Below are positions 5,525-31,224 of a stretch of 34,880 bases of DNA, one piece after another (within the stretch, counting starts at the first letter, position 1; the number at the start of each line of letters is the position of its first letter). A model generated the notes under the pieces. It ran no database searches. It was not told where the DNA came from and saw only the letters and a list, made by a program, of their open reading frames with translations. The position numbers were made by a program, and so were the translations under genes. Location: positions 1-34,880 of the forward strand of contig JAQGJH010000068.1 of NCBI GenBank assembly GCA_028290705.1. The letters run 5' to 3'. The stretch comes from Hyphomicrobiales bacterium. GTDB lineage: Bacteria; Pseudomonadota; Alphaproteobacteria; Rhizobiales; Beijerinckiaceae.

Positions 5525-5565
5525 CGGCGCGTCGCGGGCGGCATTCACCCGCCCGTGACGCGTCG
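5525..5565. terminator. GC-rich hairpin between convergent genes
   Basis: Bases 5525-5541 pair with 5549-5565 in a 17-bp stem (two G-U pairs) around a 7-base loop, immediately downstream of the Hat-type gene. The stop codon of the convergent FAD monooxygenase gene (5545-5547) lies in the loop. There is no T-run, so it is a candidate transcription end or mRNA 3' stabiliser rather than a canonical terminator. Confidence 0.45.
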
Positions 5566-7128
5566 CAGGATGCCGCCCGCATCGGCGGGAGCGGCCTCGC
5601 CGGCCCAGACGACATATTGATCCGGCCGCACCAGCACCAACGCGGCCTCGTAGGCCTCGCGCCCGCCGTCGCGCGTATCGCGAATGACCTTCAGCGGGAC
5701 GCCCATGCCGTCGGCCGCCCGCTGAAACGCCGCTACCTCCGCATCCCCGGCTCCGAGCGCGAGAAGCGTGAAACCCTCGCCCAGCGCATTGAAGCTGTTT
5801 TCGCGGGACGTCAGCGGAACGGGAGCCAGATGGTGGCCGGCCCGCGCCTTGAAGGCGTGCACGCCATGGGCGCTGTTCACGCCGCCTTCCGGCCCGAAGA
5901 CCACGGGTGAGCCCTCGTAATTGGGTTCATATTGCTGGAACCTCGATCCGATGTCGGATTCCCGCGCCTTCCAGGCCGCTTCGAATTCCTCAACGTCGTT
6001 GTCAGGATTATATCGGCGCAGAAACTCGGCGTCCCGCTTGATCCGTGCGGTGATGAAGTCATCCGCCGTTTGCCAGAAGACCGGGCGGCGCTCGTTGCTG
6101 TAGCTTTCAAGCAGGGCTTCGCGTCCCCAGCCCTGCAGCACAGCGGCGAGTTTCCAGCCCAGATTGACGATGTCCTCGAGCCCGTTGTTCAGGCCGAACC
6201 CGCCGTAAGGCGGGTGAGCATGCGCGGCGTCTCCGGCGATGAAAACCCGGCCGACCTGATAGGCCTCCGCGACCGCAACCCGCATGTTCCAGAACGACAG
6301 GTGCTCGAACGCGCAGGCCACGGGAAATCCCGCCGCCTCGCGGATCAGCCCGAGCGCATCGAAGCTTTCCAGCTCCGAGTCTCTCGGCACGGGCGCATGG
6401 AAAAACCAGCCGTCCGGGACGCTGATGCGCCCGAAAAACTGCCAGTAGCCCTCGAGGTCGGGGCGGATGACACGATAGGTGGAGCGCTCCGGAAAACGCT
6501 TCAGACGCTCGTTGAGCTCGGGCGACTTGAACACCGCGAGCAGCATGGTCTTCTCATAATCCTGCTGCGACCGCTCGATGCCCATCTGGCTTCGCACCGA
6601 GGAATGCGCGCCATCGCAGCCCACCAGATAATCGGCCGACAGCACCGCGGTTTCGTCTCCTTCGAGACGCTTGATCGAGACACGAACGCCATCTCGGTCC
6701 TGCGTGATGTCGCCGGCCGTCCAGCCAAACAGCACGTCGGCGGAATCGAGCGTCGCGAGCTTCTTCCGCAGCACCGCTTCCATCTGGTACTGGGGCAGCC
6801 GTTCATTGTCCTGCGAGTAGAACCTGCGCACCAGCTCGCGGCCTGCCGGGGCATGCCAGTAGTCGCTCATCAGGTTGCCGTAAGCCGTCAGCTCGCCGAT
6901 CGGAAAACCGGGTGGCATGAGCCTCGACTCGCGCAGCTCCTTTTCGAGTCCCCATCGCGCGAAATGCTCGAGCGTGCGCTGCGTGAGATTCTGGCCCTTC
7001 GGAATCTGGCTCAGCGTCGCGCGGGGCTCGACCACCGCGCAGGAAATGCCGCGGAGCGCCAGGTTGACCGCGAGTCCGGCTCCGACCGGCCCACCGCCAA
7101 CGATGATCACCTGATATCTGGTCTTCAT
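5545..7128 (-). CDS. FAD-dependent aromatic-type monooxygenase
   Basis: A 527-residue flavoprotein hydroxylase of the FAD_binding_3 (PheA/TfdB/MhpA) type, which would use NAD(P)H and O2 to hydroxylate an aromatic or heteroaromatic ring in the cytosol. It shows the N-terminal Rossmann GxGxxG (VIIVGGGPVGAG, residues 7-18), a DG motif (VGCDGAHSSVR, ~175) and the second FAD-binding motif (VFIAGDAAHAHPPYGGFG, ~293-310), with a thioredoxin-like C-terminal tail (DGMGVPLKVIRDTRDG). The start at 7128 (MKTRYQVIIVGG) is typical of the family and has AGGA upstream; a longer in-frame start would add 15 residues. It lies 13 bp downstream of a TctC-like gene in one operon, divergent from an IclR regulator, so the binding protein may supply its substrate. 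The exact substrate is unknown. Confidence 0.92.
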   Translation of the reverse strand: MKTRYQVIIVGGGPVGAGLAVNLALRGISCAVVEPRATLSQIPKGQNLTQRTLEHFARWGLEKELRESRLMPPGFPIGELTAYGNLMSDYWHAPAGRELVRRFYSQDNERLPQYQMEAVLRKKLATLDSADVLFGWTAGDITQDRDGVRVSIKRLEGDETAVLSADYLVGCDGAHSSVRSQMGIERSQQDYEKTMLLAVFKSPELNERLKRFPERSTYRVIRPDLEGYWQFFGRISVPDGWFFHAPVPRDSELESFDALGLIREAAGFPVACAFEHLSFWNMRVAVAEAYQVGRVFIAGDAAHAHPPYGGFGLNNGLEDIVNLGWKLAAVLQGWGREALLESYSNERRPVFWQTADDFITARIKRDAEFLRRYNPDNDVEEFEAAWKARESDIGSRFQQYEPNYEGSPVVFGPEGGVNSAHGVHAFKARAGHHLAPVPLTSRENSFNALGEGFTLLALGAGDAEVAAFQRAADGMGVPLKVIRDTRDGGREAYEAALVLVRPDQYVVWAGEAAPADAGGILRRVTGG

Positions 7129-7141
7129 GTGATGCGTCCTG

Positions 7142-8179
7142 TCAGCGAGCGGCTTCGGCGATTTTCCGGGCACGCTCCACCACCGTCTCGGGGCTCTTGT
7201 AGACGCGGTCGAGAATCTCGGAAATTTCCTCGGCGCGCACCGGATCGACCTCGATCGCCTGCTTCTCGGCTTCGGCCTTGTAGTCGGGGTCCGTCATCGT
7301 CGCCTGGAAAGCGGCGCGCAACGCGGCGACCCGCTCCGGAGGAACACCGGACGGCGCGGCGAGAGGCCACGCGATCGCAAGCCTCGCGAGGAAAAGCTCC
7401 AGCAATGTCCTGTCCTCGTCATTGGCTGCGAGATCGAGCGCCGAAGGCACGTTCGGCAGATCTGGCGCGGCCTTCGCGCCGAGCTGCACCAGGATGCGGA
7501 TGGTCTTGTCGGCGATCCAGTTCGGCTTGCTGGCCTTGATGTAACCCCACGACAGGCCCGCCATTCCATCGGCTTCACCGCGCTCCACCGCCAGCAAGGT
7601 TTCGGTCGCTCCGGGATAACCGGTCACGACCTTCAGTTTGGTGCCCAGGATCGAGTTCATGATGAGCGGAAACGTCGCCGTATCGGCTCCCCCGCCCGTC
7701 GTCGCGACGACCATCTCGCGGGTTCTCAGATCGGTGAGCGAATTGAACGGCGTGTTGCTGCGAACGAAGACGAGATTGGTCTCGCGGCTCGGACTGCCGA
7801 TCCAGTTCAGCGCGCGCGGGTCGAATTGCGCGCTCTTGTTTCCCATCAGCGGCTCGAAGATCACGCCACGCGAGAAGGTCCCGATGACGGTGCCGTCCTT
7901 CGGGGCGATGTTGGCGAGATAGTTCACCGCCGTCAGGCTTCCCGCGCCGGGCATGTTCTGGACGATCACGTTCGGCTTGCCGGGAATGTGCCGGCCGATA
8001 TAGCGGCTGATCGTTCTCGCGTTCAGGTCGTATCCGCCGCCCGGCGAAAAACCCACGATGATCCGAACGGTCTTGCCCTTGAAGAAATCCTCCACAGCAT
8101 CCGCGCTCGCCTTCGTGCCCAGCGAGCTCATGGCCACCAGAGCCAAGGCAAAAATCGCAGTCCTGCGCATGCGAACCAT
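7142..8179 (-). CDS. TctC-like periplasmic solute-binding protein
   Basis: A 345-residue TTT-type binding protein and first gene of the operon with the FAD monooxygenase. A signal peptide (MVRMRRTAIFALALVAMSSL..., cleavage probably after KASA) precedes DAVEDFFKGKTVRIIVGFSPGGGYD. Family motifs include PGKPNVIVQNMPGAGS, APKDGTVIGTFSRGV, VTGYPGATETLLAVERGE and IRILVQL. It belongs to the same divergent subgroup as the proteins at 3046, 16610 and 23801. The ATG at 8179 has a strong CGGGAGGA ribosome-binding site. Transcription probably starts in the 8180-8337 interval, where two palindromes suggest IclR control. It should capture the aromatic or carboxylate substrate for the downstream monooxygenase; no TctA/TctB genes accompany it. 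Confidence 0.9.
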   Translation of the reverse strand: MVRMRRTAIFALALVAMSSLGTKASADAVEDFFKGKTVRIIVGFSPGGGYDLNARTISRYIGRHIPGKPNVIVQNMPGAGSLTAVNYLANIAPKDGTVIGTFSRGVIFEPLMGNKSAQFDPRALNWIGSPSRETNLVFVRSNTPFNSLTDLRTREMVVATTGGGADTATFPLIMNSILGTKLKVVTGYPGATETLLAVERGEADGMAGLSWGYIKASKPNWIADKTIRILVQLGAKAAPDLPNVPSALDLAANDEDRTLLELFLARLAIAWPLAAPSGVPPERVAALRAAFQATMTDPDYKAEAEKQAIEVDPVRAEEISEILDRVYKSPETVVERARKIAEAAR

Positions 8180-13450: not shown

Positions 13451-14449
13451 TCAATTCGGTTCGGCGAGCAACTTCCGGAACTTCTCGATCTCCGCCGGAA
13501 CCAGCGCCCTGACGTAGTCCGGCGACATTTCCTCGCTCGTCGCCGGCAGCGATCCCAGATCGTCCACGCGCTTGGCGAAGGCTTCATTGGCGACGGCGGC
13601 GCGCAGGGCCGCATTGAGCTTGGCGATGACCGGCTGCGGCGTCCCCTTGGGCGCGAACAGGCCGTTCCAGCCCTGCTGCTGGAAGCTCGGAAGTCCAGCT
13701 TCCACCGAGGTCGGCACGTCCGGCAGAGACTTCAGTCGCTGCGGAGAGGAGATCACCAGGCCGGTGAGCGTCTTGCCCTGGATGGCGCCCGACACGGACG
13801 CGGCCGCGTCGCACACGCCGTCGATCTGGCCGCTCACCGCGTCGTTGAGCGCGGGTGCGGCCCCGCGATAGCTGACGAGTTGCACCTCGACGCCGCTGGC
13901 CTGGATGAAGGCCCGGCAGATGAGATAATTCGATGATCCGACACCCGCGTGCCCCATGTTGATCTTGCCGGGATTCTTCTTCGCATAGGCGATGAATTCG
14001 GTCAGCGTGCGCGCCGGGAACTTGGCGTTGACGGCGATGACCGGCAGCGTCTTGGCGACGAGTCCGATCGGCACGAAATCATCGGACGTGTATTTGATGT
14101 CCTTGTAGATGCTGTAGGCCGCAGCATTGGTGCCACTGTTGCCGATCGCAATCGTATAGCCGTCGGGATTGGCGCGCGCCGCGCGCGTCAGGGCCGTGGA
14201 CCCGCCCGCCCCGGACGTGTTTTCGTTGACGATGTTCTGACCCAGGTCCGCGCGCATGTATTCGGCCGCAAGCCGCGCGATCACGTCGGATGTTCCGCCA
14301 GCCGCGAAAGGCACGATCATGGTGATGGGACGGGTCGGATAGGATTGGGCGAATGCGGGCGCAGCCGCGCAGCACAGGAGGACTGCCAGACCGAGCCGCT
14401 TCGCGAGCGCATGAGGTCTTGGGCGAGCGAAAGTTTCGGCTGACGACAT
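13451..14449 (-). CDS. Bug-family (TctC) periplasmic solute-binding protein
   Basis: A 332-residue canonical Bug protein. A signal peptide ending AAAPAFA precedes the classic QSYPTRPITMIVPFAAGGTSD opening. Other marks are the GAGGSTALTRAARANPDGYT loop, KKNPGKINMGHAGVGSSNYL and VQLVSYRGAAPALNDAVSGQ around the ligand cleft, SLPDVPTSVEAGLP, and WNGLFAPKGTPQPVIAKLN. It should bind a dicarboxylate or related acid in the periplasm. The ATG at 14449 has GGGAGAG upstream. It lies upstream of the family-5 binding-protein gene on the same strand (103-bp gap) and downstream of the LysR gene (97-bp gap). Unlike the proteins at 3046, 7142, 16610 and 23801 it belongs to the main Bug subgroup. No TctA/TctB genes are near. 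Confidence 0.93.
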   Translation of the reverse strand: MSSAETFARPRPHALAKRLGLAVLLCCAAAPAFAQSYPTRPITMIVPFAAGGTSDVIARLAAEYMRADLGQNIVNENTSGAGGSTALTRAARANPDGYTIAIGNSGTNAAAYSIYKDIKYTSDDFVPIGLVAKTLPVIAVNAKFPARTLTEFIAYAKKNPGKINMGHAGVGSSNYLICRAFIQASGVEVQLVSYRGAAPALNDAVSGQIDGVCDAAASVSGAIQGKTLTGLVISSPQRLKSLPDVPTSVEAGLPSFQQQGWNGLFAPKGTPQPVIAKLNAALRAAVANEAFAKRVDDLGSLPATSEEMSPDYVRALVPAEIEKFRKLLAEPN

Positions 14450-14546
14450 GTTTCTCTCCCGGCTTTTGCGCCATACTGGCCGAAGCCGGCAAGGTGCGCA
14501 ATTCAACGCCACGCTTTCGACGCCAGACTTTCGTCGGCTGCATCAC

Positions 14547-15467: not shown

Positions 15468-15671
15468 GGTCCCTCCCATTGATGAACCGTATAGCGCAAT
15501 CGGGTCAAACAGACCACTTCCTGCATCAGTCCCGTTCCGGCAGACTGCTCTCGTCCACGCCGGCGCGCTTCCTGGAAGCCGAAGACCGGGGCGGGACGGG
15601 AGGATCGACACGCCGGCCGGCCGCTCGATGGCGACGCGGGCCCGACCGCGCCGCGACGCCCCGAGGAATGA

Positions 15672-15689
15672 GCCGATCCGCGGATCGGC
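15672..15689. promoter_or_regulatory. 18-bp perfect palindrome GCCGATCCG/CGGATCGGC
   Basis: A gapless perfect inverted repeat lies 21 bp upstream of the amidohydrolase start codon, in the LysR-divergent interval. At DNA level it could be an operator; as RNA, a stable hairpin just before the ribosome-binding region (AAGAGG, 15694-15699) could affect initiation. Either role is inferred. Confidence 0.45.
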
Positions 15690-15709
15690 GCGCAAGAGGT
15701 TCGCACGCC

Positions 15710-16555
15710 ATGATGGTCATCGACTCGCAAGTTCACATCTGGGCCGCCAACACGCCCGAGCGTCCCTGGATGGAAGGCATGGAGAAGCGCGCGCACATGC
15801 CCGTGCCGCTGACCGCCGACCTGTTGTGGAGCCACATGCGGGAGGCGGGCGTGACGCACGCCATTCTGGTGCCCCCCTCCCTCGACGGCGACCGCAACGA
15901 TCTCTGCCTCGCGGCCGCGCAGGCGCATCCCGACCGCTTCGCCGTCATGGGACGGCTGCTGTTGAACAAGCCCGGCGCGCGCGAAAAGCTCGTCGCCATG
16001 AAGAGCCAGCCGGGCATGCTGGGTGTGCGGCTGACTTTCCATCGCGACAACGATCGTCCCTGGCTCACGGACGGCACGGCCGACTGGTTCTGGCCGGAGG
16101 CCGAAAAGCTCGGCCTGCCCGTCATGGTCCACGCGCCCGAACGCCTGCCGAAGATCGCCGAGATCGCACGCCGGCATCCCGATCTCACCATCATCGTCGA
16201 CCACATGGGTTTCGCCCGTGAGACCATGGACGACGAAGCGCCGGGCGGCGCGGACCGCATCCTGCAACTGGCGGACCTGCCCAACGTCTCCGTCAAGGTC
16301 TCGGCCATGCCGTGCTTCTCATCGCAGCCCTATCCGTTCCGCAACCTGCACGAACCGCTGAAGCGCGTGATCGCGGGCTTTGGCGTCCAGAGATCGTTCT
16401 GGGGCAGCGACTTCTCTCGGCTGCCCGAAAACTGCAGCTACCGGCAGGCCGTCACGATGTTCACAGAGGACCTCGACTTCCTCAAGGGTCAGGATCTCGA
16501 ATGGGTCATGGGCCGCGGTCTCGCGACTCTGCTCGGCTGGCCCGCCCCGCGCTGA
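15710..16555 (+). CDS. amidohydrolase family protein (Amidohydro_2 type)
   Basis: A 281-residue TIM-barrel metal-dependent hydrolase of the 2-pyrone-4,6-dicarboxylate hydrolase / ACMSD-like group. The first strand carries MVIDSQVHIW, with the D-x-Q/H-x-H metal motif seen as DSQVHIW. Later come MLGVRLTFHR, LGLPVMVHAPE (second metal His), TIIVDHMGFA (third His) and the catalytic Asp region RSFWGSDFSRL. The typical barrel order is preserved. Substrates in this group are lactones or decarboxylated aromatic ring-cleavage products. The ATG at 15710 is followed by another ATG at 15713; AAGAGG lies upstream. It is the first gene of an operon with a TctC-like protein and an alpha/beta hydrolase, divergent from LysR. 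Confidence 0.9.
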   Translation: MMVIDSQVHIWAANTPERPWMEGMEKRAHMPVPLTADLLWSHMREAGVTHAILVPPSLDGDRNDLCLAAAQAHPDRFAVMGRLLLNKPGAREKLVAMKSQPGMLGVRLTFHRDNDRPWLTDGTADWFWPEAEKLGLPVMVHAPERLPKIAEIARRHPDLTIIVDHMGFARETMDDEAPGGADRILQLADLPNVSVKVSAMPCFSSQPYPFRNLHEPLKRVIAGFGVQRSFWGSDFSRLPENCSYRQAVTMFTEDLDFLKGQDLEWVMGRGLATLLGWPAPR

Positions 16556-16609: not shown

Positions 16610-17686
16610 ATGACAGTGCAAGCGACGACACGCGTCTTCAGACCTGAATTCAAGGCCGCCGCGGTGAAAGCCGCCACGGTCCTTTCGCTCGGAATCCTCT
16701 TCGCCGCCAGCGCCGGCCGTCCCGCGTCGGCGGACGCGGTGGCGGATTTCTACAAGGGCCGCACCGTCGATCTGATGGTCGGCTTCTCGACCGGCGGAGG
16801 CTATGACGTGTCCGCGCGGCTGGTCGGACGCAACATCGGCAAGCACATCCCGGGCAATCCGACCGTCGTCGTCAAGAACATGGAAGGCGCGGGCAGCATG
16901 CGCCTGGCCAACTGGCTCTACGCCGTGGCGCCGAAAGACGGTTCGGTCTTCGGCAGCTTCGCGCGCGGCGTACCGCTCGATCCGCTCTTTGGAAATCCCG
17001 GCCCGCAGTTCAAGGACGGCTCCAAATTCTCCTTCATCGGCAGCGCCAACGACGAAGTCTCGATCTGCGGCGCATCCCGCAAGGCCGGCGTCAATTCTTT
17101 CGACGATCTGCTGACGAAGGAACTCGTCGTCGGCGGCTTCGGCGCCGGCACGGAATCGGAGCAGCACGTCAAACTGCTCAATGTTGCGCTGAACACGAAG
17201 CTGAAACTCGTGAAAGGCTATCCGGGCGGCAATGACGTCAATCTCGCGATGGAGCGCGGCGAAGTGCAGGGCCGCTGCGGCTGGTCGTGGACCGGCGTCC
17301 GCGCGCAATATATGGACCGGGTGAAGGACGGGTCGCTCGTCGTGCTGGTGCAGAACTCGCTGGCGAAACACGCCGACCTTCCGGACGTTCCGCTGATCAT
17401 GGACCTCGCGAAGGGCGAGGACGAAAAGCAGATGCTGCGCCTCGTTCTGGGTCCGCAGAAAATGGGCCGGCCGTTCATGGGGCCGCCGGATCTGCCGGCC
17501 GACAGGCTGGCGGCGCTGCGCCGGGCCTTCGAGCAGACCATGAAGGATCCGGAATTCCTGCGCGAGGCCGAAAAGTCCCAGCTCGAGATTTCGCCGATCA
17601 GCGGGGACGAGATGGAGAAGATCATCGCCGACGCCTACAAGACGTCCCCCGATCTGGTGAAGCGGACGGCCGAAGCCATCAAGTAA
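16610..17686 (+). CDS. TctC-like periplasmic solute-binding protein
   Basis: A 358-residue TTT-type binding protein, second gene of the LysR-linked operon (54 bp after the amidohydrolase). The signal region is long (cleavage probably after PASA, ~residue 42) and precedes DAVADFYKGRTVDLMVGFST with GGGYD. Other marks are PGNPTVVVKNMEGAGS, VAPKDGSVFGSFARG, VKGYPGGNDVNLAMERGE, HADLPDVPLIMDL and RLAALRRAFEQTMKDPEF. It is closest in motif pattern to the protein at 7142. The ATG at 16610 follows CCGGAGGAAACGCC. Located between two hydrolase genes, it likely imports the compound that those enzymes process. There is no membrane partner in the operon. Confidence 0.92.
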   Translation: MTVQATTRVFRPEFKAAAVKAATVLSLGILFAASAGRPASADAVADFYKGRTVDLMVGFSTGGGYDVSARLVGRNIGKHIPGNPTVVVKNMEGAGSMRLANWLYAVAPKDGSVFGSFARGVPLDPLFGNPGPQFKDGSKFSFIGSANDEVSICGASRKAGVNSFDDLLTKELVVGGFGAGTESEQHVKLLNVALNTKLKLVKGYPGGNDVNLAMERGEVQGRCGWSWTGVRAQYMDRVKDGSLVVLVQNSLAKHADLPDVPLIMDLAKGEDEKQMLRLVLGPQKMGRPFMGPPDLPADRLAALRRAFEQTMKDPEFLREAEKSQLEISPISGDEMEKIIADAYKTSPDLVKRTAEAIK

Positions 17687-18590: not shown

Positions 18591-19382
18591 TCACCAGCCG
18601 AGCGTCCGCGCCGCCAGCTGACGCAGCGGGTTTTCGGGATCGGACACGAGTTTCGCCGTCAGGGCGATCGACATGACGACCAGCAGGGGCCGCACCCCGC
18701 GACCGCCGTAGCGCATGGCGAGCCGCGCGCCGATCTGGTTCCCCAGAACGTTGGCGCACGCCATGGTGAGCCCCAGGGCCCAGATCACCTGCCCGCCCGC
18801 GATCATGGCCAGCAGGCTCGCGACGTTGGTGGCGAAGTTCAGGAACTTCGTGTTGGCGATGGCCCGCACGAGGCCGAGCCCGCCCATGACGACGAAGAGC
18901 GTGGTGAAGAACGAGCCCGTGCCGGGGCCGAAAAACCCGTCATAGAAGCCGATGACCGCCGCCGCGGCCGTCAATGCTGCGGGTCCGAGGCGCGACGCAC
19001 GGTCGGCCTGCCCGAGCGGCGGCGCGAGCAGGAAATACAGCGCGATCGAGACCAGCAGCACCGGCACCAGGCCCGCCAGAAACCACGGATCGACGATCTG
19101 CACCGTCACGGTCCCGGCCGCCGCTCCCAGAAAGGCGCCGGCAGCCGGAAGCGCGAAGCGGCGCAGGTCCACGTGCCCGGCGCGATAAAAGGCCCAGAAC
19201 GCCCCGCCGGTGCCGAACGCGCCCTGCAGCTTGTTGGTGGCGAGCGCCGGCACGGGCGGCACGCCGGCCGCCATCAAGGCTGGCACGGTCAGCAGGCCGC
19301 CTCCGCCCGCCATCGCATCGATGCCGCCGGCCAGAAAGGCCACGCAGGCCAGGATCGCGAAAGTCTCGAACGTCAGTTGCAT
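18591..19382 (-). CDS. TauE/SafE family sulfite/organic anion exporter (TSUP)
   Basis: A 263-residue polytopic membrane protein with about eight hydrophobic spans and both TSUP repeats. The first repeat carries FLAGGIDAMAGGGGLLTVPA and the second GFYDGFFGPGTGSFFTTLFV. ALATNKLQGAFGTGGAFWAF and IANTKFLNFATNVASLLAM are the matching mid-repeat segments. Members transport sulfite, sulfonates or other organosulfur anions across the inner membrane. I use the ATG at 19382, which puts the first hydrophobic helix at the N terminus as usual, although its ribosome-binding site is weak; a longer in-frame start at 19451 would add 23 basic residues. It is convergent with the alpha/beta hydrolase gene (10 bp apart) and divergent from the fusion gene at 19495. 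Its ligand is unknown. Confidence 0.88.
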   Translation of the reverse strand: MQLTFETFAILACVAFLAGGIDAMAGGGGLLTVPALMAAGVPPVPALATNKLQGAFGTGGAFWAFYRAGHVDLRRFALPAAGAFLGAAAGTVTVQIVDPWFLAGLVPVLLVSIALYFLLAPPLGQADRASRLGPAALTAAAAVIGFYDGFFGPGTGSFFTTLFVVMGGLGLVRAIANTKFLNFATNVASLLAMIAGGQVIWALGLTMACANVLGNQIGARLAMRYGGRGVRPLLVVMSIALTAKLVSDPENPLRQLAARTLGW

Positions 19383-19494
19383 GCGCCGTCGATAGCCGGT
19401 CACGCCGCCAAAGGACAGTCGCGGGGCTTTCTGAGACGATCTGTGAACCACACATTCGCCGCTGCGTTGGTCGGCTCAACACCGGCGGAGCGCG

Positions 19495-21243
19495 ATGATT
19501 TATTATGGCGACGGGTCCCGCAGGCTGGATCTTTCCGCCTGGCGCCATCGATGCCGCCATGTCGGCGACGAACGGCCGGGCGAAACACCTCTGGCCCGGC
19601 ATGAGCGCCTCGTCGCGCTGCTGATCGAATCCGGCCAGGTCGCCCAGGCGCTCGCCGACCGGGCCTTCGAGGCCGCAGGCGCGCGCGACCTCGACGATCC
19701 TGCGTCATGCGCCGCGCTCGACATCGTCCGCGCGCTGGCTCGCGACGTCGCCCGGTCCTGGTCGAGCGATTTCGACGCGGCTCCGGGTCAAGTTCCTGAA
19801 GCGTCTCCCGATGCATGGCCCGAGACGGTCACGGTGCGCGAGCCGGAGGGCTTCGCGTTCTATGCGCTCTATCCGGAAGCCTATGCGGTAGCCGCCCGGC
19901 GGCTGCCGCCCTCCGACGCGCATGTCATCGGCCTGCGCAGCATCGGGATCGTCCTTGCCGCCATGGTGGCGGCAGCCCACGCGGGTCCATCTCTCCCGGC
20001 CGTCGACACGGTGCGGCCGCACGGCCATCCCTATCGCCGGCGGATCGATGCGCCCGATCTGATGCGCCGCCTCGCCCGCACGCGCCCGCCACGGATCTGT
20101 ATCGTCGACGAGGGGCCGGGCCGCTCCGGCAGTTCGATGGCGGCCGTTGTGGAAGCCCTCGTGGCGCACGGGCTCGCGGATTCGGACCTGCACCTGTTTC
20201 CCGGCCATCCCCACGGTCCCGGCCCCGAAGCCGGCCCCGACACACGGCGGATCTTCGAGACCCTGCCGGCGCATGTCGTGGATTTCGATGAGCTCGTGCT
20301 CGGGCGGGATGCGCCGGGCGGCGGCCTCGCGGGCTGGGTCTCGGATCTCACCGGCCAGGCGACCGCGCCCCTGGCCGACCTGTCGGCTGGGCGGTGGCGC
20401 ACCTTCCGATATGAAGCCCCGGCGGATTGGCCCGCCAGCGACATCCAGCAGGAACGCCGAAAATATCTCCTGACGTCGGACTCCGGGCGCTATCTTCTGA
20501 AATTCGTCGGGCTGGGGCGGCGCGGTGCGGAAATGGCCGAAGTCGCCCGTCAGGTCTCGGACGCGGGCTTCTCGCCCGAGCATTTTGGCGTGCGTCACGG
20601 CTTCTCGGTCGAACGCTGGCGCGACGACCTGCATCCGCCAAAACCGGGCGAGCGTCCGGCATGGCTGCGTTTCGTTGCTGACTATCTGGCGTTCCGCCGA
20701 TGCCGCCTGATCGCGCCCGGTCTCGCCGGCGCCGGGGCGGCGACGTTGCGCGACATGACTTTGCACAACGCCGGGGTGGCGCTCGGGCCGCAAATGCGCA
20801 CCGCCGTCGAGGCCAGGCTGCGGGATTTCGACGATGTCTTCGCGCAAGGCCGGCGGTGCTGCATCGACGGCCGGATGCATGCGCACGAGTGGATGTGCAA
20901 TCGCGAGGGCATCTTCAGAAAAGCCGATGCCACGGATCACCATGCGGGGCACGATCTCGTCGGCGCGCAGGACATCGCCTGGGACATTGCGGGCGCGGCC
21001 GTGCATCTTTCGCTCGACGAAGCTGAAGTTCAGGCGCTCTGCGACGCCGTGGAGCGCGGCAGCAGAAGCGCGGTTTCGCGCGACCTCGTCACCTGCTTCC
21101 GGCCCGTCTACCTGGCCTTCGAACTTGGCCGCCTCACGCTTGCGGAAGGCGGCGCATGGGAGGCCGACGAGAAGTCCCGCCTCGCCTTGCAGCGCCAAAA
21201 GATGGAGCGCCTTTTGTGCGCCGATCTCGACCGGGTCGCCTGA
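19495..21243 (+). CDS. uncharacterised two-domain protein: PRTase-like plus kinase-like
   Basis: A 582-residue cytosolic protein I do not recognise as a named family. The N-terminal half (about 1-300) has a helical lead-in, then IGLRSIGIVLAAMVAAAH and ICIVDEGPGRSGSSM (residues 201-215), which looks like the PRPP-binding loop of type I phosphoribosyltransferases. The C-terminal half (about 310-580) looks like an aminoglycoside-phosphotransferase-type kinase: KYLLTSDSGRYLLKFVGLG with a candidate ATP-binding Lys336, an EMAEVARQVSDAGFSPEHFG helix, and a C-lobe region with DGRMHAHEWMC and DHHAGHDLVGAQDIAWDIAG in place of the usual HxDxxxxN/DFG. The start ATG at 19495 has GGCGGAG upstream. The domain reading is inference from motifs. 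The gene is divergent from TauE/SafE and followed by a small hypothetical gene on the other strand. Confidence 0.7.
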   Translation: MIYYGDGSRRLDLSAWRHRCRHVGDERPGETPLARHERLVALLIESGQVAQALADRAFEAAGARDLDDPASCAALDIVRALARDVARSWSSDFDAAPGQVPEASPDAWPETVTVREPEGFAFYALYPEAYAVAARRLPPSDAHVIGLRSIGIVLAAMVAAAHAGPSLPAVDTVRPHGHPYRRRIDAPDLMRRLARTRPPRICIVDEGPGRSGSSMAAVVEALVAHGLADSDLHLFPGHPHGPGPEAGPDTRRIFETLPAHVVDFDELVLGRDAPGGGLAGWVSDLTGQATAPLADLSAGRWRTFRYEAPADWPASDIQQERRKYLLTSDSGRYLLKFVGLGRRGAEMAEVARQVSDAGFSPEHFGVRHGFSVERWRDDLHPPKPGERPAWLRFVADYLAFRRCRLIAPGLAGAGAATLRDMTLHNAGVALGPQMRTAVEARLRDFDDVFAQGRRCCIDGRMHAHEWMCNREGIFRKADATDHHAGHDLVGAQDIAWDIAGAAVHLSLDEAEVQALCDAVERGSRSAVSRDLVTCFRPVYLAFELGRLTLAEGGAWEADEKSRLALQRQKMERLLCADLDRVA

Positions 21244-21981: not shown

Positions 21982-22986
21982 TCAGGAAAACAGGCCGGAA
22001 AGCCAGTAGCAGGTGGCCGCGATCGCCGCCGAGGCCGGGATCGTGACGATCCAGGCGATCACGATGCTGCCCGCGATGCCCCAGCGCACCGCCGACACGC
22101 GCCGCGCCGCGCCCACGCCCACGATCGCGCCCGTGATCGTATGGGTGGTCGACACCGGAACGCCGAGCCCCGTCGCCATGAACAGCGTCAGCGCCCCGCC
22201 GGTCTCGGCGCAGAATCCCTGCATCGGATTGAGCCGCGTGATTTTCGAACCCATCGTGTGGACGATGCGCCAGCCGCCGAACAGCGTGCCGAGCGCCATC
22301 ACGGCCTGGCAGGTGATCACCACCCAGAACGGCACGTAGAACGTGTCTCCCAGCTGACCCTGCGAGAACAGCAGGACCGCGATGATCCCCATGGTTTTCT
22401 GCGCATCGTTGCCGCCGTGGCCGAGCGAATACATCGAGGCCGAGACGAACTGGCCGATGCGGAACTTCCGGTCGACCTCGTGCGGCGTGCTGCGCACGAA
22501 GATCCACGAGACCGCCAGCACGAAGATCAGCGCCAGCAGAAAGCCCACGAGCGGCGACAGGAAGATCGCCGCCGTGGTCTTCAGCACGCCCGACAGCACC
22601 ATCGAGGCGACGCCGGCCTTGGCCACGCCCGCGCCGATCAGCCCGCCGACCAGCGCATGCGAACTGCTCGACGGAATGCCGTAACGCCACGTGATGACGT
22701 TCCAGACGATCGCGCCCATGAGCGCGCCGAAGATCACCCGCGGGTCAACGATGTTCGGATTGATGATGCCGGTGCCCAGCGTCTCGGCGACGTGCAGCCC
22801 GAAGAACAGGAAGGCGATGAAATTGAAGAACGCCGCCCAGGCGACGGCGAATTGCGGACGCAGCACGCGCGTCGAGACGATCGTCGCGATCGAATTGGCG
22901 GCATCGTGCATGCCGTTCATGAAGTCGAAAAACAGCGCGACGCCGACGAGGCCGATCAGCAGCGGCAGAGCGAGAGTGGCGTCCAT
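21982..22986 (-). CDS. pit: Pit-family inorganic phosphate transporter
   Basis: A 334-residue inner-membrane low-affinity phosphate:H+ (metal-phosphate) symporter of the PiT/PHO-4 family, with about ten hydrophobic spans. Both family signatures are present: FFDFMNGMHDAANSIATIVS near the N terminus and GHGGNDAQKTMGIIAVLL in the middle. The paired serine-rich turns are GIPSSSSHALVGGLIGAG and GVPVSTTHTITGAIVGVG. Length is shorter than E. coli PitA but normal for the bacterial Pit-DUF47 type. The ATG at 22986 has AGGA upstream. It follows the DUF47 gene by 12 bp in one operon, the standard Pit-accessory arrangement. No Pho box was recognised upstream. Confidence 0.94.
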   Translation of the reverse strand: MDATLALPLLIGLVGVALFFDFMNGMHDAANSIATIVSTRVLRPQFAVAWAAFFNFIAFLFFGLHVAETLGTGIINPNIVDPRVIFGALMGAIVWNVITWRYGIPSSSSHALVGGLIGAGVAKAGVASMVLSGVLKTTAAIFLSPLVGFLLALIFVLAVSWIFVRSTPHEVDRKFRIGQFVSASMYSLGHGGNDAQKTMGIIAVLLFSQGQLGDTFYVPFWVVITCQAVMALGTLFGGWRIVHTMGSKITRLNPMQGFCAETGGALTLFMATGLGVPVSTTHTITGAIVGVGAARRVSAVRWGIAGSIVIAWIVTIPASAAIAATCYWLSGLFS

Positions 22987-24994: not shown

Positions 24995-25265
24995 GAGCCA
25001 TCTCGCCCACCAGAAGCCGCGCCTTCTCGCCCGCGTCCGCCGCCTCAAGGGGCAGATCGAAGCCGTCGAGCGCGCCGTCGAGACGGACGCCGAGTGCGCC
25101 GAGGTGCTGCACCTGCTTGCCTCGGTTCGCGGCGCCATCAACGGCCTCACCGGAGAGCTGATCGAAGATCACGTGCGCGAGCACGTCATGAACGAGCCCG
25201 ACGCGAATGCCCGCGCCAAAGGCGGCGGCGAGTTGATCGACGTCATTCGGAGCTATCTGCGATGA
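24993..25265 (+). CDS. dmeR: DmeR, RcnR/CsoR-family Ni/Co-responsive repressor
   Basis: A 90-residue all-helical CsoR/RcnR-family repressor. Numbering from the ATG at 24993 gives His3, Cys35, His60 and His64, which are the nickel/cobalt ligand set of E. coli RcnR rather than the Cys-His-Cys set of copper CsoR or the FrmR pattern. The family core LLARVRRLKGQIEAVERAVE, SVRGAINGLTGELIEDHVRE is plain. The start codon is fixed by His3 although no ribosome-binding site precedes it. The G/C-tract operator overlaps its start. Its TGA overlaps the dmeF ATG (ATGA), so the two are one translationally coupled operon, the arrangement described for dmeRF in Rhizobium leguminosarum. Metal binding should release the DNA and induce efflux. 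Confidence 0.93.
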   Translation: MSHLAHQKPRLLARVRRLKGQIEAVERAVETDAECAEVLHLLASVRGAINGLTGELIEDHVREHVMNEPDANARAKGGGELIDVIRSYLR

Positions 25266-26233
25266 CGGCGCACATCCACGATCCGGTCGAACCGCCATCG
25301 TCCGGCGGACACGATCACGTCTTTCTGGGCGAAGGCCACGCGCGCAACGAGAAGCGCACGCGTCTCGTCATCGTTCTGACGCTCGCCATGATGGTCGGAG
25401 AGATCGTCGCCGGCACGATCTACGGCTCGATGGCGCTGGTGGCCGATGGCTGGCACATGGCCACCCATGCGGTCGCCATGCTGATCGCCGCGCTGGCCTA
25501 TTATTTCGCCCGCAAGCACGCACGCGACAGCCGCTTCTCCTTCGGCACCGGCAAGCTCGGCGATCTCGCGGCCTTCGCCAGCGCGGTCGTGCTGGCGCTG
25601 ATCTCGTTGCTGATCGGCTGGGAAAGCTTTCTGCGCATCACCGCGCCGGTGCCGATCGAATTCAATCAGGCGATCGTCGTCGCGGTGCTGGGTCTGGCGG
25701 TCAATCTCGCCAGCGCCTGGCTGCTGCGGGGCGAGCACCATCACGACCATCCCGACCACGACCACGACCACCACCATCATCATCACGAGCACGGCGGGGA
25801 CAACAACCTGCGCGCGGCCTACATGCACGTGCTGGCGGATGCGCTCACCTCCGTCATGGCCATCGTGGCGCTTCTGGCGGGCAGCATCTACGGCTGGCTC
25901 TGGCTCGATCCGCTCATCGGCATCGTCGGCGCTCTCGTGATCGCCCGCTGGTCGTGGGGCTTGATGCGCGACGCGGGCGGCGTCCTGCTCGACTTCACGC
26001 CGCACGGCGCCGATCTGCCGGCCAGGCTTTCGGCGGCGATCGAAGCCGAGGGAGCCCGCATCGTCGACCTCCACGTCTGGCAGCTCGGCCCCGGCCACCG
26101 CGGCGCGATCCTGTCGATCGTTGCGCCCGATCCGCAACCGCCGTCGCACTATCGCCACAGGCTCGCGCATCTCCACGATCTGTCCCACGTCACCATCGAG
26201 GTCGAGCCGGCGTCCGCCTCTCAGTCCCGATAG
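25262..26233 (+). CDS. dmeF: DmeF, cation diffusion facilitator for Co/Ni efflux
   Basis: A 323-residue inner-membrane CDF transporter of the DmeF type that exports Co2+/Ni2+ in exchange for protons. It has six spans. The metal site carries D62/H65/H69 in LVADGWHMATHAVAM of TM2 and H189/D193 in MHVLADALTSVMA of TM5. A His-rich loop between TM4 and TM5 (residues 159-177) contains 13 histidines, and the N terminus has a further His cluster (AHIHD, GGHDHV). A cytoplasmic C-terminal domain (DLPARLSAAIEAEGARIVDL, HVWQLGPGHRGAIL) follows. The ATG overlaps the dmeR stop. The 3' end overlaps the convergent response-regulator gene by 13 bp. Regulation by DmeR is expected through the upstream operator. 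Confidence 0.95.
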   Translation: MTAHIHDPVEPPSSGGHDHVFLGEGHARNEKRTRLVIVLTLAMMVGEIVAGTIYGSMALVADGWHMATHAVAMLIAALAYYFARKHARDSRFSFGTGKLGDLAAFASAVVLALISLLIGWESFLRITAPVPIEFNQAIVVAVLGLAVNLASAWLLRGEHHHDHPDHDHDHHHHHHEHGGDNNLRAAYMHVLADALTSVMAIVALLAGSIYGWLWLDPLIGIVGALVIARWSWGLMRDAGGVLLDFTPHGADLPARLSAAIEAEGARIVDLHVWQLGPGHRGAILSIVAPDPQPPSHYRHRLAHLHDLSHVTIEVEPASASQSR

Positions 26234-29885: not shown

Positions 29886-30890
29886 TCACGGCTGCTGCGT
29901 GATCCCCGCCGCCATCACGGCCTCGCGCAGGATCTTGCGCTCCTGCGCGACGATGCGGGCGAAGTCCTCCGGCGACGAACCCATGGGATCGATCCCGACG
30001 GACACGAGACGCGCCGCAAGCGCGGGGTCCTGCGACGCCTCGCGCGTCGTCGTCGCGATGGCCGTCACGATCTCGGCCGGAATGCCCGCCGGTCCGATCA
30101 CGCCGTTCCAGGACGTCACCTCGAAGCCGGGGAACAGCGACGCGACGGTTTGCAGGTCGGGAGCCTGCTTGAGAGGCTCGAGCGTCGACACCGCCAGCAG
30201 CTTCAATTTGCCGTTGGCCCTGTGCTGCAGCAATTCCGAAGCATTGCCGAAATAAATGTCGACCTCGCCGGCGAGCATCGCCGAAATCGCCGGACCGCCG
30301 CCGCGATACGGCACCGTCACCACGTCGAGACCCGCCCGCTTGGCGAGCAGCATGGTCGACAAATGCCCGAGCCCGCCCACGCTGGCGGTCGCGGCGTTGA
30401 GCTTGCCGGGATTGTTCTTCACATAGGCGATCAGTTCGGAGAGCGAGTTCGCGGGCAGCGACGCCCTGGCGCCGAGCACGAATGGCCCGGTCCCGAAAAT
30501 GCTCAGATGCTGCAACTCGGTCTCGCTGTCATACGACACCTTCTGCATCATCGGCACGATGATGGTCTGCACGGCCGCGCCGAACATCAGCGTGTACCCG
30601 TCCGGCTTGCTCTTCGCCAATTGCGCGGTGGCGAGCGATCCCGCGGCATTCGGCCGGTTGTCGACGATGAAAGTCTGCTTGTATTTGCGCGAAAAGAAAT
30701 CGGCCAGCATGCGCGCCATCGTGTCGGTGTTTCCGCCCGGCGGAAACGGCACGATCATGGTCACGCTGCGGTTTGGCCAATCGCTCGCAAGCGCGCGCTC
30801 CGGCATCGCCAGTCCGATCGCCGCGAGAGCCGCCGCCGCGAGCACGATGCCACGTCTCGAGACGCGCAGCTTCGATCCATGTTCCGTCAT
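29886..30890 (-). CDS. Bug-family (TctC) periplasmic solute-binding protein
   Basis: A 334-residue canonical Bug protein with a Tat-like twin-arginine leader (VSRRGIVLAAAALAAIG) cut after ALA. The mature part opens SDWPNRSVTMIVPFPPGGNT. Other marks are NRPNAAGSLATAQLAKSKPD, VKNNPGKLNAATASVGGLGH, VVTVPYRGGGPAISAMLAGE, and SWNGVIGPAGIPAEIV. The ATG at 30890 has GGAAGGAA upstream. It should bind a carboxylate. It stands alone without transporter membrane genes, divergent from the MCP gene at 31378 across a 487-bp gap. With the protein at 13451 it makes the two typical Bug proteins of the window. Confidence 0.93.
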   Translation of the reverse strand: MTEHGSKLRVSRRGIVLAAAALAAIGLAMPERALASDWPNRSVTMIVPFPPGGNTDTMARMLADFFSRKYKQTFIVDNRPNAAGSLATAQLAKSKPDGYTLMFGAAVQTIIVPMMQKVSYDSETELQHLSIFGTGPFVLGARASLPANSLSELIAYVKNNPGKLNAATASVGGLGHLSTMLLAKRAGLDVVTVPYRGGGPAISAMLAGEVDIYFGNASELLQHRANGKLKLLAVSTLEPLKQAPDLQTVASLFPGFEVTSWNGVIGPAGIPAEIVTAIATTTREASQDPALAARLVSVGIDPMGSSPEDFARIVAQERKILREAVMAAGITQQP

Positions 30891-31224
30891 GCCGTTTCCT
30901 TCCCGTCGATGTCTCGCGCCACGAAGCACGATCCATGCCGCAGGGTCTCGACGCCGGCATTGGAGTCCAGAGCGACCCGAATCCAATATTGTCGACAGGA
31001 ACACGGCTGCCGCGTCGCACCTCCGAATCGAGGCCGACTCTATACTTGCCAGGTCGGTGAGGCCGTGCGGCTTCCCGCGAGTCGTTTCAAGGGTTTGCGG
31101 CTCGGGTCTGATCGAGGTCTCGGACTGGACCTGCCCCCGCCGAGAGTCCCGTCGGAATCCAGCCGGAGTCTAGTGGCCGCCCTCGATCAATAAAGCAGAC
31201 CAAGAGTCCCGTCCCGTAGGAATT

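Follow-up and report, generated by a model that had tools for sequence, protein, structure and literature searches.

The open reading frame at positions 19495-21243 of the analysed window (the whole stretch of 34,880 nucleotides from a Hyphomicrobiales bacterium, contig JAQGJH010000068.1) is a real gene of an unannotated bacterial family. Its product joins an N-terminal half with a probable PRTase fold to a C-terminal half for which a choline-kinase/APH fold is well supported, both according to predicted models. The family represents a new pairing of known folds with a well-supported pathway link and a predicted function. We tentatively propose that the fusion protein is a bifunctional tailoring enzyme in the pathway of an inositol-containing oligosaccharide or glycoside.

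The gene is one open frame of 582 codons on the forward strand, and its ATG start agrees with the MIVYGD-like start of the family. An antisense frame of 497 residues is also open at 19705-21198 on the reverse strand. Open antisense frames are common in G+C-rich genes, and this one was rejected as the source of the conservation because relatives were found, and are conserved, in the forward frame. Family members comprise about 580 residues, and the 24 other sequences of our 25-row alignment, which includes the window protein and one row (L007) that ends at its contig end, are 30-40% identical to the window protein. The alignment leaves out L016, L024, L035, L038 and L039 as well as longer copies of included rows (near-duplicate, partial or N-holding). 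Within these 25 sequences, motif conservation goes far beyond chance, and E118, G119, Y123, R148, G151, R174, R182, R321, K323 and D458 are invariant in all rows. In agreement with its initial description as undescribed-looking, the window protein has no significant match among Pfam, NCBIfam or PADLOC profiles or PDB sequences; the 25 aligned members gave only scattered matches in Pfam, the best at an E-value of 0.0098 in one member. An AlphaFold2 model of the whole protein, made from ten sequences, reached a pLDDT of 83.9 and a pTM of 0.85. Its least certain stretch, residues 118-121 with a pLDDT below 50, contains the invariant E118 and G119. The gene and its features, with the evidence for each, are:

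19495..21243, + strand: whole gene, encoding the 582-residue PRTase-like/choline-kinase-like fusion protein (open frame; 25-sequence family alignment)
19495..19806, + strand: N-terminal strand and helical region, residues 1-104 (AlphaFold2 secondary structure; conserved MIVYGD-like start)
19807..20364, + strand: PRTase-like domain, residues ~105-290, limits approximate (Foldseek of residues 1-312; hhalign)
19924..19947, + strand: VIGLRSIG, residues 144-151, candidate pyrophosphate loop (conservation; aligned with PRTase first core strand/loop)
20011..20043, + strand: VRPHGHPYRRR, residues 173-183, hairpin at the presumed place of the PRTase flexible loop (conservation; model strands)
20104..20136, + strand: VDEGPGRSGSS, residues 204-214, PRPP-loop-like motif (conservation; aligned with VDDLIATGGT)
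20392..21240, + strand: choline-kinase/APH-like domain, residues ~300-582, limits approximate (Foldseek; profile match to LicA, E 0.44)
20494..20517, + strand: LLKFVGLG, residues 334-341, N-lobe strand with candidate ATP-binding Lys336 (aligned with LicA IVKFFG)
20866..20892, + strand: DGRMHAHEW, residues 458-466, altered Brenner (catalytic) motif (aligned with LicA HIDLVPENF)
20920..20994, + strand: KADATDHHAGHDLVGAQDIAWDIAG, residues 476-500, candidate metal-binding Asp478 (DFG-like) and His/Asp block (conservation)

The fold of the C-terminal half is well supported because Foldseek returned LicA (4r7b) as its best match at an E-value of 4.4e-9, among 64 PDB matches at E<=0.001. The best 50 matches are choline and ethanolamine kinases, APHs and related small-molecule kinases with identities of 6-15%, classed by title or, for some, as what we take them to be. 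The predicted model of this half is bilobal. None of the 25 aligned members, the window protein included, matched a kinase profile in Pfam, and the active-site positions given here stem from a weak profile alignment with LicA (E 0.44). In this alignment D458 falls on the Brenner Asp and E465 at the position of the motif's Asn, with two more residues between them than in LicA; D478 coincides with the DFG-like Asp, and IAWDVAG is paired with LicA DPMWDLA. A second metal-binding (DFG-like) Asp as well as an N-lobe Lys are found at positions derived from this alignment; position 336 is Lys in 20 and Arg in five of the 25 rows. The original prediction regarded the usual HxDxxxxN as replaced by DGRMHAHEW. 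This is correct with regard to the missing His and to the Asn, at whose place a Glu is found, but the catalytic Asp appears to be kept in the weak LicA alignment; the family motif reads DGR(M/L)xxxEW, with D458 in all 25 and E465 in 24 of 25 rows. The His- and Asp-rich block that had been pointed out in the same half, DHHAGHDLVGAQDIAWDIAG (residues 481-500), is a conserved element: in the 24 rows reaching them, H482, H486, Q492, W496, D497 and G500 of the block are identical throughout, as are K476 and D478 just before it.

With LicA and APH enzymes the fusion protein shares the bilobal fold and the positions of the N-lobe Lys, the catalytic Asp and the DFG-like Asp, whereas it differs from them in the loss of the Brenner His and Asn, the Glu at the Asn place, the two extra residues, the His/Asp-rich insert before WD, the fusion to a PRTase-like half and the lack of a Pfam kinase match. 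As both phosphotransfer acids are kept, an active kinase appears more likely than a dead one.

The PRTase fold of the N-terminal half is graded as probable only, because no Foldseek match reached 0.001 and the hhalign match is modest. The model of residues 1-312 (pLDDT 78.5) gave no match at E<=0.001 in the PDB; its best match was HGPRT (3ggc, E 3.8e-3, probability 0.97), followed by XPRT, PyrR and others with unrelated folds between them (best 50 of 561). PRTases form the largest single group with 24 of the best 50 of 561 matches at E<=10, several being chains of one protein and three being PRTases as we take it, the others by title. B12-binding domains, eIF2B, aminotransferases and periplasmic-binding folds are interspersed among the same best 50 of 561. 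Pfam contains no PRTase profile that matched any of the 25 members at E<=1, PDB sequences gave no match to this half at E<=10, and the PRTase_2 family PF15609 matched in one of 41 genomes searched, below cut-off.

By hhalign, the fusion profile was compared with five PRTase groups of at least two sequences each from the relatives' genomes, ten cluster families serving as controls. The best group scored 25.0 (E 0.0043, probability 8%) and the controls 10.5-21.0; the other four groups scored 13.7-15.0, i.e., inside the control range. The APRT and XGPRT labels of these groups are our assumption from motifs. One of the five groups (L105 and L106) lacks a PRTase motif and was apparently taken in the wrong frame, as were the single sequences L111, L121 and L122; the singletons L111, L114, L121, L122 and L129 were left out of the comparison. 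The register with the best group is that expected for a PRTase, with VIGLRSIG aligned to the first core loop and VDEGPGRSGSS to VDDLIATGGT, and a second group has the same register over both loops at a score of 13.8, inside the control range. If the N-terminal half were some other Rossmann-like sugar-phosphate-binding domain, the protein would be a kinase of sugars or cyclitols that carries an accessory domain. Foldseek E-values that all exceed 1e-3 with other folds mixed in, the lack of a Pfam PRTase match at E<=1 in 25 members and an hhalign probability of 8% at best would suit such a domain. We nevertheless consider it quite unlikely in view of the position of PRTases as the largest single group (24 of the best 50 of 561) and of the register shared by two PRTase groups over both loops, even with the second inside the control range.

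The original prediction had singled out a PRPP-loop-like motif, and it is indeed present as VDEGPGRSGSSM at residues 204-215, where eight positions (D205, E206, G207, P208, G209, S211, G212 and S214) are identical in all 25 rows; V204 occurs in 24 and S213 in 23 of 25, and position 210 is variable. The PRPP loop of type I PRTases consists of two acids followed by xxxTGxT, a motif also seen in the PRTases compared here. The loop-like motif of the fusion protein is one residue longer than DDxxxTGxT, with four instead of three residues between the acids and SG-S. In the VIGLRSIG loop G146, R148, I150 and G151 are identical in 25 of 25 rows and S149 in 24, while the VRPHGHPYRRR hairpin, modeled with strands at 170-173, 176-178 and 181-183, has R174, P175 and R182 in all 25. 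Type I PRTases (HGPRT, XPRT, APRT, PyrR) are the best fold matches of the N-terminal half among the best 50 of 561, and the two acids and SG-S loop of the fusion protein lie at the place expected from them. Unlike these enzymes, it has no Pfam match, a longer PRPP-like loop and a very short hairpin at the flexible-loop place, and its relatives are located among genes for glycans.

PRTases of the PyrR type can act as regulators. The presence of PyrR structures among the best 50 of 561 N-terminal matches, the additional residue in the PRPP-loop-like motif and the stronger fold match of the kinase half would all be compatible with a PRTase-like half that is a non-catalytic PRPP or nucleotide sensor controlling the fused kinase, the latter being the sole pathway enzyme. 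This arrangement appears unlikely to us: E118, R148, R174, R182, D205, E206, S211 and S214 occur in every one of the 25 rows, which at the level of sequence suggests chemistry rather than mere binding. Structure prediction, advised at the outset as a check on the two halves, together with Foldseek supports a PRTase-like plus kinase-like build, strongly for the kinase half (LicA-type fold, E 4.4e-9) and moderately for the PRTase half (best E 3.8e-3).

Searches of genome contigs yielded nine relative loci, which stem from a Sphingomicrobium, six Rubellimicrobium, a Methylococcaceae and an Ilumatobacteraceae assembly. Relatives are present in 90 of 72,556 plasmid records, i.e., 66 from Sinorhizobium, nine from Roseomonas, five each from Azospirillum and Rhizobium, three from Ensifer and one from Ciceribacter, the remaining match being a 15% fragment on a Comamonadaceae plasmid. 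This fragment (L044:7998-8309) contains only about the last 100 residues, is apparently a remnant and adjoins a UDP-glucose/GDP-mannose dehydrogenase family gene. The family also occurs on pSymB of Sinorhizobium meliloti 2011. In overlapping samples, each counting the window's own genome, the fusion gene was found in 5 of 51 genomes of the genus, 11 of 249 of the order, 4 of 385 of the class (one of the four a false match) and 8 of 398 of the phylum. A weak match in genome G325 was rejected, as the family profile gives nothing in that locus at E<=10.

The patchy distribution (5 of 51 genomes of the genus, own included) and the many copies on plasmids (90 records, 66 of them from Sinorhizobium) might recall a nucleotide-linked signalling or conflict system, a function also entertained in the original prediction. 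We now regard it as highly improbable, since neither the fusion ORF nor nine other ORFs of the window matched PADLOC at E<=0.1, no relative was detected among the 50,697 phage records searched or among the scanned viral contigs, and the context of the relatives is biosynthetic.

Many relatives are surrounded by a cluster encoding inositol-3-phosphate synthase (INO1), a histidine phosphatase, a TIGR04290 methyltransferase, a 'beta-xylosidase', glycosyltransferases and nucleotide-sugar enzymes, in some cases also a TIGR04295 radical-SAM protein. On plasmids of Roseomonas mucosa, Azospirillum brasilense and Ensifer adhaerens the fusion gene is accompanied by INO1, histidine phosphatase and TIGR04290 methyltransferase as well as by glycosyltransferases and epimerase/dehydratase-type enzymes. 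The Azospirillum and Ensifer clusters contain a gene annotated as 'beta-xylosidase', a UDP-glucuronic acid decarboxylase family protein is present in those of Roseomonas and Ensifer and a TIGR04295 B12-binding radical-SAM protein in that of Azospirillum; in Roseomonas, a hypothetical protein adjoins the methyltransferase. Similar gene sets recur around the S. meliloti copies and in other genomes. The TIGR04290 and TIGR04295 proteins score above NCBIfam cut-offs. INO1 is below the cut-off of TIGR03450 (528 vs. 638 bits) and above that of Pfam Inos-1-P_synth, and the histidine phosphatase, which is similar, below cut-offs, to MSMEG_4193 and to the alpha-ribazole phosphatase CobC, is below the cut-offs of TIGR03848 and TIGR03162 and above the one of Pfam His_Phos_1.

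Phylogenetic spread and neighbours had likewise been named as a check. Three or more cluster families were located no more than 8 kb from the fusion gene in 16 of 29 loci examined, and the same is true of 14 of the 22 loci whose flanks extend 7.5 kb or more on each side. Because queries of the epimerase and glycosyltransferase types hit each other's genes, the family numbers are inflated for some loci; each of the 16 positive loci nonetheless shows matches at three or more separate places. The near-duplicate or short loci L023, L024, L043, L035, L038-L041, L054 and L056 were left out of the 29. INO1 is divergent from the fusion gene with 154-185 bp between match ends at eight loci (L027, L028, L030-L033, L042 and L058) and with 261 bp at L053, while at L009 it lies just upstream in the same direction. 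In the same-genus genome G988 the fusion gene is located beside INO1 and divergent from it, as in Sinorhizobium L042. The cluster set is absent around the window copy, L045 (Azospirillum), L005, L008 and L010 (Rubellimicrobium, with both flanks covered), L025 and L029, and also around L026, which has one UXS-like gene only.

The inositol cluster, which occurs mainly in alphaproteobacteria, is a conserved inositol/oligosaccharide-type set with TIGR04290 and in some cases TIGR04295 (e.g., L022:308-9854 and L042:10728-28612) that also exists without the fusion gene. Our literature searches found nothing on-topic for TIGR04295/TIGR04290, the inositol cluster, its product or the fusion. The stretches from Roseomonas, Azospirillum, S. 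meliloti Ak57 and Ensifer name no polysaccharide exporter or lipid-carrier sugar transferase (the plasmid gene table being incomplete), and the cluster product may therefore be soluble; a polysaccharide pyruvyl transferase family gene that adjoins the cluster in S. meliloti and Ensifer speaks against this. In S. meliloti Ak57 (L043:14777-15837) INO1 matches in two overlapping pieces where the gene table has no CDS, suggesting a broken gene or a sequence error.

The neighbours also bear on nucleotide or cofactor salvage, in which the PRTase half would make a ribotide from an unusual base, the kinase would phosphorylate it and the cluster would only use the product. The closest PRTase folds are purine salvage enzymes (best 50 of 561) and the cluster histidine phosphatase resembles alpha-ribazole phosphatase, below cut-off. 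The annotated or scanned cluster neighbours are, however, sugar, inositol and methyl-transfer enzymes with none for bases or nucleosides, and salvage thus appears improbable.

As cluster marker we used the Azospirillum 'xylosidase' (L022:8931-9854), which was sought in the 249-genome order sample; judging by its size and genome labels, this is the sample on which the fusion search was run. It matched in 20 of 249 genomes, 18 times strongly (E below 1e-150) and twice weakly (~1e-27 and ~1e-24). The strong marker is present in 10 of 11 fusion-positive vs. 8 of 238 fusion-negative genomes (Fisher p 2.2e-12, or 9.3e-12 if the two weak matches are counted, relatedness uncorrected); these genomes are not independent, four of the ten with both genes belonging to one genus. 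The only fusion-positive genome of the order without the marker is the window's own 74%-complete assembly, which is also the exception in a second, overlapping set with the marker in 15 of 16 fusion-bearing genomes or records. Eight of the marker-positive set have at most one cluster-like gene beside the fusion gene within the stretch covered (L004, L005, L008, L010, L025, L026, L029 and L055, with short flanks at L004 and L055). The relatives of the fusion gene are genomically linked to the inositol cluster, and this link is well supported. Strong markers without a fusion match occur in eight genomes. Seven were read around the marker (G215 was left out): all seven stretches show INO1 and the cluster methyltransferase, and a six-frame profile search of these 19-kb stretches found no fusion gene. 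The eight genomes suggest that the fusion protein would perform an optional step, one of decoration or tailoring.

The window's own genome has a single copy of the fusion gene, which stands alone between TauE and PHO4 genes. It starts 43 bases from a divergent TauE/SafE gene (18591-19451, - strand) and is followed after ~0.7 kb by a PHO4 phosphate transporter gene on the other strand (21982-22986). Elsewhere in this 74%-complete genome, a piece of INO1 with 203 residues and 64% identity is cut off by the end of contig C26; the 'xylosidase' marker and one glycosyltransferase were not found there, with positive controls for the marker query only. The window itself, a 35-kb contig, also encodes three TctC-type solute-binding proteins (13451-14512, 16610-17686 and 29886-31004; one below Pfam cut-off), an amidohydrolase (15479-16555) and a protein resembling flavin aromatic hydroxylases (5545-7173), which might together serve the uptake and breakdown of aromatic acids. 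A DmeF-type Co/Ni efflux transporter is encoded at 25094-26233 (NCBIfam NF033827, above cut-off).

In the tailoring enzyme that we favour, the N-terminal half would transfer ribosyl-5-phosphate from PRPP to a hydroxyl of the inositol glycan or its precursor, and the C-terminal half, a kinase for small molecules, would use ATP to phosphorylate either that molecule or its acceptor, the order of the two steps being presumed. A pathway phosphatase, either the cluster histidine phosphatase or the HAD protein encoded downstream in Rubellimicrobium, might remove the ribosyl 5-phosphate, and the window copy would serve the same pathway as its relatives. Synthesis and phosphorylation of a ribosylated small molecule, as envisaged in the original prediction, is still the best reading and draws support from the biosynthetic context of the relatives, with the use of PRPP and ATP remaining putative. 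In butirosin biosynthesis, BtrL/BtrP carry out PRPP-dependent O-ribosylation of an aminocyclitol and subsequent dephosphorylation, with no kinase known to be involved. The step proposed for the fusion protein would amount to this chemistry, likewise acting on a glycoside of a cyclitol.

In all six Rubellimicrobium loci (L003, L004, L005, L008, L009 and L010), the last part of the fusion gene overlaps a downstream gene of the HAD family. The two such genes that were scanned both match HAD profiles, and no adjacent HAD match was found in the other loci scanned for neighbours; among these loci, an adjacent HAD partner occurs only in Rubellimicrobium. At L005, alpha-amylase-family and nucleotidyltransferase genes come after the fusion/HAD pair. 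At L009, the pair lies together with genes for INO1, 'xylosidase', methyltransferase and histidine phosphatase, and this locus therefore links the HAD-partner and inositol-cluster settings. That bacterial glycans are ribosylated in a two-step, PRPP-dependent process involving a HAD phosphatase has been established (PMC10299916, PMC11231755, PMC11127046): CriT resembles PRTases and uses PRPP while CrpP is HAD-like (PMC10299916), and gPRT and PRP domains are described (PMC11231755) and defined (PMC11127046). The fusion protein resembles the gPRT-PRP systems (CriT-CrpP, Hib capsule polymerase Bcs3) in having a PRTase-like domain in a sugar setting and, in Rubellimicrobium only, a HAD-family gene next door; unlike them, it carries a kinase domain instead of a HAD domain within the polypeptide. 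Bcs3 is not among the best 50 of 561 N-terminal Foldseek matches and may not be in the library. By analogy, the family would work like gPRTs.

A type I PRTase-fold O-ribosyltransferase joined to a choline-kinase-fold kinase, ribosylating and phosphorylating an inositol-based oligosaccharide, would be a new enzyme class, which we consider possible, if doubtful. The unannotated family gains a concrete two-domain mechanism and a pathway for testing. Should the PRTase half indeed attach ribose to a hydroxyl of a glycan, PRPP-dependent glycan ribosylation, which has been recognised only recently, would extend to a new fold pairing, and this would help to reveal the product of the conserved inositol/oligosaccharide cluster.
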